From: Desulfuromusa kysingii
GTDB taxonomy: Bacteria > Desulfobacterota > Desulfuromonadia > Desulfuromonadales > Geopsychrobacteraceae
Length of the DNA: 64,000 nucleotides
Direction of reading: 5' to 3'
Assembly (NCBI RefSeq): GCF_900107645.1
Contig: NZ_FNQN01000001.1
Location: forward strand, 1-64,000
Shown: positions 1 to 63,066 of the stretch, piece after piece
Layout of the letters: the number at the start of each line of letters is the position of its first letter
How positions within the stretch are numbered: position 1 is the first letter of the stretch
Made by a program: the position numbers and the translations under genes
The notes under the pieces: model-generated
The model's database searches: none
What the model saw: the letters and a program-made list of their open reading frames with translations, nothing else
What the model was told of the DNA's origin: nothing

Positions 1-284
1 GCAAATCATGGCGGAACAACTGGGAACGAATTACACCGCTGTTTTCGTATCCACCGGATATCCGCAAGGCGATCTATACGACTAACGCCATTGAGTCGGT
101 CAATATGTCGCTGCGAAAGGTGACGAAGAATCGGGGCTCGTTTCCAAACGACGAGTCGATGATTAAACTGATGTATTTGGCTCTGCAGAATATATCCAAG
201 AAATGGACAATGCCGATCCGCAACTGGCGATCGGCACTGAATCAGTTTTCGATTATGTTTGAAGGGCGGATGCCGCTACTTTAA
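1..284 (+). pseudogene. IS256-family transposase, C-terminal part (cut by window edge)
   Basis: Reading from base 3 to the TAA at 282-284 gives about 93 residues with the pattern of the IS256/mutator transposase C-terminus: an IRKAIYTTNAIES stretch, then SLRKVTKNRGSFPNDES, then a KLMYLALQNISKKW stretch and a final FEGRMP. The glutamate in NAIES fits the last residue of the family's DDE catalytic triad. The start lies left of the window, so whether the gene is intact cannot be judged; it is listed here as partial. The element inserted beside a nuclease-like gene whose 5' part is missing. Confidence 0.88.
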
Positions 285-53770: not shown

Positions 53771-54283
53771 CTAAGTTCCCGAATTATTCTTCACCGGTAT
53801 TTCGGTAAAAGCTTTACTTAGTTCTGTTGCGGTTTCGGCATCAAGGTTGTCTAGAATTTTTCCTGCCGTTTTCTTTTTGATACCAAGGAGCAGATCGACC
53901 GCTAACTGATCATCAAGTTCTTTGATTAATGTGGCCGCTTTTTGCGGGTTCATCTTTTCGTAGATCTTACTGAGCTCTGCGATTCGCTCCCCTTCAGTTT
54001 CTTCTTTACGGTCAAGCAATATGACCAGTTCATTTCTGAGCTGTTGCATAGCCGCAATTTTCTTATCGACCTCTGCCTCTAAGGTCTTTAGCTGCATTTC
54101 TCGAGTCTTTATTTTACTTTCCTGGACATCTAGTTTTGCGTATTCATCTTCGATTGAGACTAAAATCCGACGTTCCTCTACAGAGGAGATATTCTTGTCA
54201 GTGAGCAATCCGGGTTCTGCCGCGTAGAGATTTCCGACACAGAAAAGCACCATTATTGGCAGAGATAGTGTTCTCAATATCAT
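53771..54283 (-). CDS. MotE-like periplasmic coiled-coil protein
   Basis: A 170-residue protein with a signal peptide (MVLFCVGNLYA). A long coiled coil (about 40-105: DEYAKLDVQESKIKTREMQLKTLEAEVDKKIAAMQQLRNELVILLDRKEETEGERIAELSKIY) is followed by an MgtE-N-like C-terminal part (EKMNPQKAATLIKELDDQLAVDLLLGIKKKTAGKILDNLDAETATELSKAF). This matches MotE, a periplasmic chaperone for MotC/flagellar function in some bacteria. Placement between fliJ and fliK fits. Start overlaps fliJ by four bases. Confidence 0.8.
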   Translation of the reverse strand: MILRTLSLPIMVLFCVGNLYAAEPGLLTDKNISSVEERRILVSIEDEYAKLDVQESKIKTREMQLKTLEAEVDKKIAAMQQLRNELVILLDRKEETEGERIAELSKIYEKMNPQKAATLIKELDDQLAVDLLLGIKKKTAGKILDNLDAETATELSKAFTEIPVKNNSGT

Positions 54284-60143: not shown

Positions 60144-60557
60144 CTAACTGCCGTTACTGGCAGCAAATTTAAGCATCGAAAATTTCTTCTTCAACATTTG
60201 ACTGCCAGCTTCATAGAGCAATTGATTCTCGGCCAGATCAAACATCTCATCATCAACCGAAACCGTATTGCCATCACCTTGTGTGCTATTGCTGGTTTCT
60301 AGGGTCAGCGTCCCCTGAACTCTGGATATGCCGCCGCCTCCAATAGGGAAATGTTTCGGATTGGTCTTTCGTCCCGCCATCTCCGGGGTGTTGATGGCTT
60401 TGCGTAAATTATCTTCAAAATCAAGTTTCCGAGCGGAGTAGCCAGGGGTGTCTGCATTGGCAACATTTCCAGCTATCACTTGTTGTTTCTGCGCCCGCAA
60501 ATCAAGACTCTTTTGCAGTACGGCAATGGTTTGATCGGCTATTCTGATGTCTGCCAT
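60144..60557 (-). CDS. flgB: Proximal rod protein FlgB
   Basis: A 137-residue rod subunit. The start is ATG 60557 with AGGAG nine bases upstream; the open frame 20 codons further lacks a ribosome site and overlaps the TPR gene. The LDLRAQKQQVIAGNVANADTPGYSARKLDFE and NQLLYEAGSQMLKKKFSMLKFAASNGS ends are typical of FlgB. Confidence 0.95.
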   Translation of the reverse strand: MADIRIADQTIAVLQKSLDLRAQKQQVIAGNVANADTPGYSARKLDFEDNLRKAINTPEMAGRKTNPKHFPIGGGGISRVQGTLTLETSNSTQGDGNTVSVDDEMFDLAENQLLYEAGSQMLKKKFSMLKFAASNGS

Positions 60558-60600: not shown

Positions 60601-63009
60601 TCAACGTTTCTCTTCAATTAGCAAGTCCTGCGCCAACTTTCCCCAGGGACTGCTTCCATCCGCATCGACCACTTGTTGAAGAAGGTTAAGGGCCGCCGTC
60701 CGTTGCTGCTGCCGAAGCAGGATTTGTGCTGTGCGATAGCGCGCTTGGGTGCCGAATTGAGGGTCATTAACGAGTTGGTTATAAATTTTGACCGCGGCGT
60801 TATTTTGGTTTGTCTGGTAGTAGCCCTCACCCTGTAGTGCCATTTCTTTGACTTGCAAGGTCTCTCCAGAACGGGTAATCGTCTCCAGACTATTGACCAG
60901 GTCTTGCCATCTCCCCAGTTGCCCATAGATGTTGGCAGCGCGGATTTCCAGAGCGGTACTGCTGGGGCGGTCTTTTCGGTCTAACCAGGCAAGCAATTGG
61001 TCTTGATCTCCTTCACGCTCAAAAGCATCCAGTAAGATTCCAAATAATGCCCCGCTATCTTCGCCGTGAGGGAATTTTTCAAGGTAGCGCCGGGCATATC
61101 GTCCCGCCTCTTGGTACTCTTTCCGCTTTGAGTACGATTGCGCCAGGGGCAGGTAAATAAATTCATGATCCGGCTGTCCAGAGCTGCGATCAAAGAGGTA
61201 GAGGAGGACCCGTGTAGACCTCTCATAGAGGCCTAACCGGTTGAAGGCAGTTGCCAGGTCGCGAAGAAAGCCTTTGTCAAAACCACTTCTTAATAGGAGT
61301 TTGCGGTTCTTCTCTGCCAAGACTACGGCTTGCAAGTCATTTTGGTTTTCAATCAATTGGCGCACCACCGTGGGAAGTTGCTGCAGAATCAGTAGGTTAG
61401 CCTCGCGGACGAGGGGGGAACTGCCGTAATTGCGCTGAAAATACAGCAGTGATTCGATGCTCTCTTGATGTGCTCCCAGCAGGTAGAGGGTCAAAGCATA
61501 TTTGAGCTGACTCTCTTCGCGCACGATCCGGAAGTGTGACGTTTCGGCCAACTGCGCATAGGCGGTAGCGCTCTGTTCTCGCTCAAGTTCTCCACCATTG
61601 ATCCACTTTTTATCAATCAATCGCAGCGTTGCCCGGTCACCACCTTCAGTATCAGGGCGGTCCAGAGTTGCCCGCTGGAGGCCAATCATACCCCAACCCC
61701 GGTCACCGGCTTCATCTGCTGAGAGGCCAGCGGCAAAGAGGAGGAGGTCATCCCCCGGCCCCTCAATCAAAGGATCAATGAGCTTTCGGTAGAGATGATT
61801 TGCAAAGCGATAGTCTTCGGCTTTAAAAGCGCTGAATGCCGCGCGATTGAGAGAACATCTGTAAACATCAAAAAGTCCCGGCTCTTCCGCCAGGTCCCGA
61901 TAGGCGTTCAGTGCCAGATCGAGATTACCAAGACCAGAATTGGCATCGGCAGTTCTCAGCTGCAATGGGATCTGGAGGGTTTTGGGCCAGTTGATCTCTG
62001 GGGTTTGTAACTGCTCTAGCGCCACTTGATTTTGGTCTGAATCCAGCGCTGTCTCTGCAAACAAGAAATGGACAAGAGGGAGCAGGGGGTGATTTTCATC
62101 GAGTTTTGGCAGCAGCTGTTGCAAGGTCAGTTGGGCGACGAAGGGTTGACCTTGGAGGGCTTGTCCGTACGCTGTCAAATATTCGACACGCAATTGTTCC
62201 GCTCCTTTTTGACGACGTAACGCATCGATTCTGGTGATGCCACTTTCGATTGCACCGGTGCGCAGTTGTGCTTCAGCCATGAAGAGATCACGTATGTAGC
62301 GTTGTTGCTGGTCCAACTCGCTCAACCCGGTTGCCGTCTGGAGCAAACTGAGGAACATGTTGTTGTCAGCATGTTGCTGCAACGGCCAGAGAGGGCTGCC
62401 GTCGTCGGTAATGAGTTTCGGGAGTTGTGGAAAGGTAAAGCTCAGCGGTAATTTCAACTGCCATAAGGTGCGATAATCACGGAAAAAATCATCCCAACGG
62501 CCTTTCCATGGGGACTCTTGCTGAAATTTTGCCGCTCTCTTTCCTGCCTTTCGCGGGGGCATATCGGTAATCTGAAAAGCGATCGCGGGGCGACTGGATG
62601 CGTTGGTTTCCCAGTCAATGTTGATGGTGATCTGTGCCGGTTGTTGCTTTGATTCGATGATGATGTTCTCAGGAGATCGCCGCAAGACAATGGATATGAG
62701 TAACTCTTCCTTCTTCTGAGCGAACAAGAACTTAACGATTTTTTCATCTTCCGGAAGGCTGCGCAGGTCCGGGGCGAGCTGGACATTCCCTAGTAACAGA
62801 TCGAATCGCTGACCGGACTTAGCCGTTGTGAACTTGGGTAAAGCGGAGAGTTCCAGTGTAATCTGCGTACTTCTGGGGGTTTTCTGTTTTGTCATCTTGA
62901 GTAGAGAGACTGGCTCAGCTGCTTTGGCAGACATGGTCATACTCATGATAAACAATAATATTAGCAGTAATAAGCCAATAATTTTTACAGCATGTATAGG
63001 ATGTCGCAT
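60601..63009 (-). CDS. Large periplasmic TPR protein heading the flagellar operon
   Basis: An 802-residue protein of no family I can name. A signal peptide (IIGLLLLILLFIMSMTMSAKA) is followed by a beta-rich segment (about 35-140: STQITLELSALPKFTTAKSGQRFDLLLGNVQL) that resembles an AMIN-type peptidoglycan-binding domain. The rest is a long array of helical TPR-like repeats, for example YLTAYGQALQGQPFVAQLTLQQLLP, LALNAYRDLAEEPGLFDVYRCSLNRAAFSAFKAEDYRFANHLYRKLI and AVKIYNQLVNDPQFGTQARYRTAQILL. ATG 63009 is chosen, with GGAGG five bases upstream. It is 43 bases ahead of flgB under its own sigma-54-type promoter, so it is co-expressed with basal-body genes. A role in placing or stabilising the motor in the wall is inference. 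Confidence 0.8.
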   Translation of the reverse strand: MRHPIHAVKIIGLLLLILLFIMSMTMSAKAAEPVSLLKMTKQKTPRSTQITLELSALPKFTTAKSGQRFDLLLGNVQLAPDLRSLPEDEKIVKFLFAQKKEELLISIVLRRSPENIIIESKQQPAQITINIDWETNASSRPAIAFQITDMPPRKAGKRAAKFQQESPWKGRWDDFFRDYRTLWQLKLPLSFTFPQLPKLITDDGSPLWPLQQHADNNMFLSLLQTATGLSELDQQQRYIRDLFMAEAQLRTGAIESGITRIDALRRQKGAEQLRVEYLTAYGQALQGQPFVAQLTLQQLLPKLDENHPLLPLVHFLFAETALDSDQNQVALEQLQTPEINWPKTLQIPLQLRTADANSGLGNLDLALNAYRDLAEEPGLFDVYRCSLNRAAFSAFKAEDYRFANHLYRKLIDPLIEGPGDDLLLFAAGLSADEAGDRGWGMIGLQRATLDRPDTEGGDRATLRLIDKKWINGGELEREQSATAYAQLAETSHFRIVREESQLKYALTLYLLGAHQESIESLLYFQRNYGSSPLVREANLLILQQLPTVVRQLIENQNDLQAVVLAEKNRKLLLRSGFDKGFLRDLATAFNRLGLYERSTRVLLYLFDRSSGQPDHEFIYLPLAQSYSKRKEYQEAGRYARRYLEKFPHGEDSGALFGILLDAFEREGDQDQLLAWLDRKDRPSSTALEIRAANIYGQLGRWQDLVNSLETITRSGETLQVKEMALQGEGYYQTNQNNAAVKIYNQLVNDPQFGTQARYRTAQILLRQQQRTAALNLLQQVVDADGSSPWGKLAQDLLIEEKR

Positions 63010-63049
63010 CCACACCTCCGGCGGTTTAGTTATTCCCGGAAAGGTTATA

Positions 63050-63066
63050 CGCGATAATCATGCCAA
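63050..63066 (-). promoter_or_regulatory. Sigma-54-type promoter of the TPR-flgB operon
   Basis: On the minus strand TTGGCATGATTATCGCG has the invariant GG-N10-GC and matches TGGCACG-N4-TTGC with two mismatches. It lies about 40 bases before the TPR gene start, giving a short leader. The rest of the gap to the M23 gene (63067-63216) shows nothing else. Confidence 0.6.

Follow-up and report, generated by a model that had tools for sequence, protein, structure and literature searches.

The window, i.e., the whole analyzed stretch of 64,000 nucleotides from Desulfuromusa kysingii, contains on its minus strand an open reading frame (63015..60601) that encodes 804 aa when read from a GTG codon. 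An ATG codon is located at position 63009, six bases inside the GTG-started frame, and direct reading shows GGAGG with a spacing of 5 nt on its 5' side. ATG 63009 was chosen as the best start, GTG 63015 being the beginning of the mechanically defined ORF; the gene (60601..63009, minus strand) encodes an 802 aa TPR protein, putatively a PflA-like periplasmic one. A sequence-only reading of this DNA had described an exported protein of 802 residues, and this description is retained: the frame and the ATG are read directly, and the signal peptide region (62929..63009, minus strand) comprises a predicted helix at residues 6–27 (804-aa numbering) followed by AKAAEP, as seen in the AlphaFold2 model and in the alignment. 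No further membrane helix is apparent in this model. Judging from the signal peptide, the protein is predicted to be periplasmic.

Gene order and the promoter region

According to the ORF list and Pfam, flgB (60144..60557, minus strand) starts with ATG 60557, 43 nt 3' of the TPR gene, and is followed on the same strand by flgC, fliE, fliF, fliG, fliH, fliI, fliJ, a FlgY-like gene, fliK, flgD, and flgE (49773). The same-strand order thus agrees with the earlier proposal that the TPR gene heads the flgB–flgE run. The product of the gene in the fliJ–fliK interval (53771..54283, minus strand) is an exported FlgY/MotE-like E-ring protein with an MgtE_N/ARM-like C-terminal domain that exceeds the Pfam cut-off for PF03448 (MgtE_N), and it is a probable partner of the TPR protein. 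The first bases of the window (3–284, plus strand) contain what was recognized by eye as the C-terminal part of a transposase-like frame.

The closest named homologues belong to Desulfuromusa MAGs, Malonomonas rubra, Pelovirga terrestris, and Geopsychrobacter. The sequence-only reading had made its proposal depend on a conserved link to flgB, and the TPR gene was found directly 5' of flgB at each full-length locus that could be read among the relatives. The same operon was also observed in a contig labelled “Chloroflexi bacterium” (L053), at 56% protein identity to the window; this contig is probably mis-binned. In addition, the genome G000 contains two FlgK-like genes (C16:147079-148591 and C16:382447-383987), each followed by a flagellin-domain gene that is probably FlgL, despite a single copy of FliF.

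The upstream neighbour of the TPR gene varies: an M23 peptidase gene occupies this place in the window and at one further locus (L002) only, while at most other loci of the Desulfuromusa group it is taken by a DMT transporter gene on the opposite strand. This variation places the operon boundary 5' of the TPR gene, and the M23 peptidase was rejected as a partner because it is not conserved at that position. The same neighbourhood bears on the possibility that the protein is not a resident motor part but assists the assembly of the rod or the P/L rings (as a periplasmic chaperone or organizer of wall opening) during flgB–flgC export. Such a role would fit the location directly 5' of flgB and flgC, the M23 peptidase just upstream in the window, and the fact that AMIN domains of AmiC guide wall enzymes. 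It is nevertheless improbable given the restricted occurrence of the peptidase, the absence of a catalytic domain from the TPR protein and its relatives in Pfam and NCBIfam searches, the best fold match with a resident scaffold protein (9hmf_K), and the co-occurrence with the E-ring protein, the last two of which are described below.

As for the promoter, the sequence-only reading had proposed one of its own for the gene on the basis of GG-N10-GC. This bare motif has 439 matches in the 64-kb window and was rejected as uninformative. What stands is the site TTGGCATGATTATCGC (63051..63066, minus strand), which is one of only three occurrences of TTGGCAYR-N6-GC on both strands of the 64 kb. Within the family, about 20 relatives have a TGGCAYR-N4-(TCGC or TGGC)-type site approximately 35–67 nt 5' of the coding start, and several further families of the same order contain related sites. 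The scan used a scoring matrix written from general knowledge and was uninformative at L033, L034, and L036, where the start is over-extended. The -12 element of the site before the TPR gene is TCGC or TGGC, compared with TTGC in the TGGCAC-N5-TTGC-like consensus. Position 63066-63051 is described as a candidate sigma-54-type -24/-12 promoter, conserved in place. It agrees with the assignment of the flgB operon of Geobacter sulfurreducens to the predicted RpoN regulon (PMC2725144), and, together with the location before flgB, suggests that the TPR gene belongs with the early class of basal-body genes.

Domain structure and fold similarities

By sequence, the repeats of the window protein are marginal: in Pfam, ANAPC3 reaches 29.4 bits, TPR_6 and TPR_14 are just below the cut-off, and Pfam and NCBIfam give no family beyond TPR families. 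In the relatives they are clear, TPR_19 being matched by 19 of 25 family members, and about 35 helices are modelled, so that the long TPR array noted earlier is upheld. Searches of the PDB by sequence, using either the protein alone or a 25-row profile, gave nothing beyond generic TPR chains, for the profile within the 60 matches listed. Magnetosome MamA, PrsT, and SctY were rejected as matches that are far below the cut-off and driven by the repeats.

The PDB sequence searches also matched chains of BamD, LapB, and CpoB, weakly and via their TPRs, which would accord with a general envelope TPR protein that merely lies beside flagellar genes. This explanation is highly improbable, since the linkage to flgB is invariant and the protein is gone where flagella are gone, including in 14 genomes that are at least 95% complete.

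The N-terminal domain of the window protein matches no Pfam family up to E 1, and AMIN (PF11741) is not among its matches; among the relatives, 6 of 26 match AMIN weakly (best E 0.019). A similarity with FAD_binding_9 (11 of 26, best 7e-5) was rejected, the domain being a predicted periplasmic beta-sandwich whose matches in the fold search are of the AMIN and small-heat-shock type.

The AlphaFold2 model, built on 26 sequences (mean pLDDT 87, pTM 0.64), shows helix 6–27, nine strands in residues 36–134, a linker extending to approximately residue 209, and about 35 helices in residues 210–803. The predicted beta-sandwich (residues 36–136; 62608..62910, minus strand) has a pLDDT of 90.7. According to Pfam and the model, residues 210–803 (60607..62388, minus strand) form a TPR-like alpha-solenoid of approximately 16–17 helical hairpins. 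In the linker (residues 137–209; 62389..62607, minus strand), the part 137–157 is predicted to be disordered (pLDDT 34–45 at residues ~140–160), yet it is conserved like the folded parts (0.74 compared with 0.69 for the solenoid in the A3 alignment), which suggests that the linker may have a binding partner.

The fold search, for which the model served as a query, found the best match among 350,542 PDB chains to be 9hmf_K (E 9.4e-16 over 825 columns; next match 3.6e-10). The entry 9HMF is the periplasmic motor scaffold of Campylobacter jejuni, and chain K, with 773 residues, equals PflA 16–788, so that from the length of mature PflA it appears to be PflA; 9hmf_L, probably PflB, ranks 37th. The TM-score to 9hmf_K is only 0.40 with a large rmsd; such a low value is expected because long flexible solenoids bend. 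The solenoid is a common fold, and this limits the weight of the match.

Taken alone, the N-terminal domain matches the AMIN domains of PilQ and AmiC and the PilQ of 3JC8 (TMq 0.62–0.74), as well as the solved N-terminal domain of PflA (9LEQ_A, prob 0.96); all these matches have E above 0.001 (0.005–0.12), and small heat-shock proteins score alike. An AMIN-like beta-sandwich is thus predicted with moderate confidence, and the domain is best called AMIN-like on account of its fold, without being assigned to PF11741. The earlier suggestion of a wall-binding domain stands as far as an AMIN-like fold is concerned; binding to the wall would follow from the fold only, and the counterpart in C. jejuni binds PflB (PMC12222027). 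Structure prediction, proposed earlier as a check, recovered the domain order of PflA, and the fold search gave the C. jejuni scaffold chain as the top PDB match.

Co-occurrence with flagella and FlgY

Among 60 sampled relatives, a strong full-length match to the TPR protein was found in all 38 genomes bearing FliF, and the FlgY-type E-ring protein is present in exactly the same 38 genomes. In the other 22 genomes, which have no FliF, neither protein was detected at full length. This pattern is not due to incomplete assembly, since 14 of these 22 are at least 95% complete; the 60 relatives are not independent points, given their shared ancestry and the clustering of the TPR, FliF, and FlgY genes. 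One genome without FliF (G010, 78% complete) contains only a fragment of the TPR gene (82 residues with two stops, C62:3434-3676), which may have decayed once flagella were lost or may be an artefact of the contig. The presence of the protein in every sampled flagellated relative indicates that it is probably a core scaffold part of the motor in this bacterial group and not an oddity.

A wider sample of the phylum comprised 197 genomes. Weak TPR matches in 183 of the 197 genomes were set aside as mostly unrelated TPR proteins, and only flagellar-adjacent ones were used. Of the best 25 profile matches, 19 share the strand of fliF and are located no more than 9 kb upstream of it. Two same-locus TPR proteins from more distant genomes match Pfam AMIN (1.5e-5 and 1.1e-3), and some have no evident AMIN domain (L107, L114). 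In several distant genomes, a histidine-kinase-like gene and then a sigma-54-type regulator-like gene separate the TPR gene from flgB. At L102, L107, L112, and L113, a block of structural and regulatory genes of this kind consists of a secreted TPR protein gene, a histidine-kinase-like gene, and a response-regulator/sigma-54-activator-like gene before flgB, the kinase- and regulator-like genes having been identified by eye from their N-terminal sequences.

Putative role in the motor and comparison with known systems

Taken together, the domain order of PflA, the top PDB match, the consistent position directly before flgB, and the distribution shared with FliF and FlgY support the earlier suggestion of a periplasmic motor scaffold: the protein is very probably a PflA-type spoke of the Desulfuromonadales flagellar motor. 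In C. jejuni, according to PMC11870540 and PMC12222027, FlgY dimers encircle the MS-ring, PflA spokes extend outward from FlgY, and the sandwich and linker of PflA bind PflB, which positions the stators. In this genome, no TPR gene that could be a PflB candidate was found near the flagellar gene sets checked. By analogy, the exported protein would reside in the periplasm as a spoke joining the E-ring to the stator ring or the wall, without an obvious PflB. Its AMIN-like domain and conserved linker would face outward and attach to the stator ring, to the wall, or to another component of the rim. By keeping the stator units at a fixed radius, the protein would enable the motor to turn or to gain torque, as with PflA and MotK. 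The location in the motor, the partners, and the effect on torque are all suggested by this analogy; no motor image or mutant for this bacterial group was found in the literature. It is conceivable, though only as a tentative proposal, that Desulfuromonadales and many other members of the phylum have a spoke without a rim, i.e., a single flgB-linked PflA-type protein and no PflB, whose AMIN-like domain and conserved disordered linker would provide a direct connection of the E-ring with the stators or the wall; this could be a simpler, possibly older form of the Campylobacter scaffold.

E-ring/spoke scaffolds have recently been proposed as ancient parts of the flagellar motor. PflA-type proteins are difficult to recognize in sequence searches, and the literature yielded no study of one from this group; the fixed place before flgB offers a gene-order criterion by which they can be traced throughout the phylum. 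Owing to the distribution shared with FliF and FlgY, the proposal is directly testable in cultured relatives, e.g., Malonomonas or Pelovirga.

The closest known system is PflA of C. jejuni and Helicobacter pylori (788 and 801 aa, compared with 802 aa here). The C. jejuni protein consists of a beta-sandwich, an unstructured linker, and 16 TPRs (PMC12222027), and that of H. pylori of a sandwich at 21–146 and a solenoid at 195–801 (PMC11392913). The signal peptide, the AMIN-like N-terminal sandwich, the disordered linker, the solenoid of 13–17 TPRs, and the presence of FlgY are shared with the window protein, whose best PDB match is probably PflA, whereas the position of the gene before flgB and the family-specific linker sequence differ.

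The same architecture could also have arisen independently of PflA, by convergent joining of AMIN and TPR modules into a stator-facing scaffold. These modules are common, the same-locus proteins L107 and L114 of distant genomes have no evident AMIN domain, and PflA sequence is not conserved between taxa, as reported in the survey by Feng et al. (PMC11870540). This origin is rather unlikely in view of the PflA-like domain order, linker, and solenoid length, the FlgY partner in both systems, and the first rank among 350,542 chains; it concerns descent and not mechanism, so its probability overlaps with that of a PflA-type spoke.

With regard to a PflA-type spoke, this survey reports PflA-type TPR proteins near flagellar genes in ~52% of flagellated species, proposes single-copy TPR proteins near flagellar genes as PflA-like, and finds mostly one such protein per surveyed genome (PMC11870540); this lineage may already be listed there. 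The statement of the sequence-only reading that the protein is not a standard flagellar part thus holds in comparison with Escherichia coli only. MotK of Cereibacter sphaeroides and CC_2058 of Caulobacter are large periplasmic proteins with a predicted AMIN-like N-terminus and helical repeats, are partners of MotE (=FlgY), and are required for rotation (PMC10954123, PMC13023049), but are encoded with motE/motA/fliL and not before flgB. MotC of Sinorhizobium meliloti and FlcB of Borrelia burgdorferi are likewise periplasmic, TPR-rich, and paired with a FlgY-type protein, but have other gene neighbourhoods, and AMIN is noted as absent in MotC (PMC13023049). The Bdellovibrio protein WP_011165745.1 is a TPR protein of a flagellar operon that was proposed to be PflA-like (PMC5758724), but contains ~1000 residues of TPR and a transmembrane helix. 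A 2026 review places PflA, MotK, MotC, and FlcB in one group (PMC13023049), and it is well supported that the window protein joins this grouping and is not categorically new; this analysis contributes the strict linkage to flgB, a presence pattern that coincides with those of FliF and FlgY, the AMIN-like fold, and the conservation of the linker.
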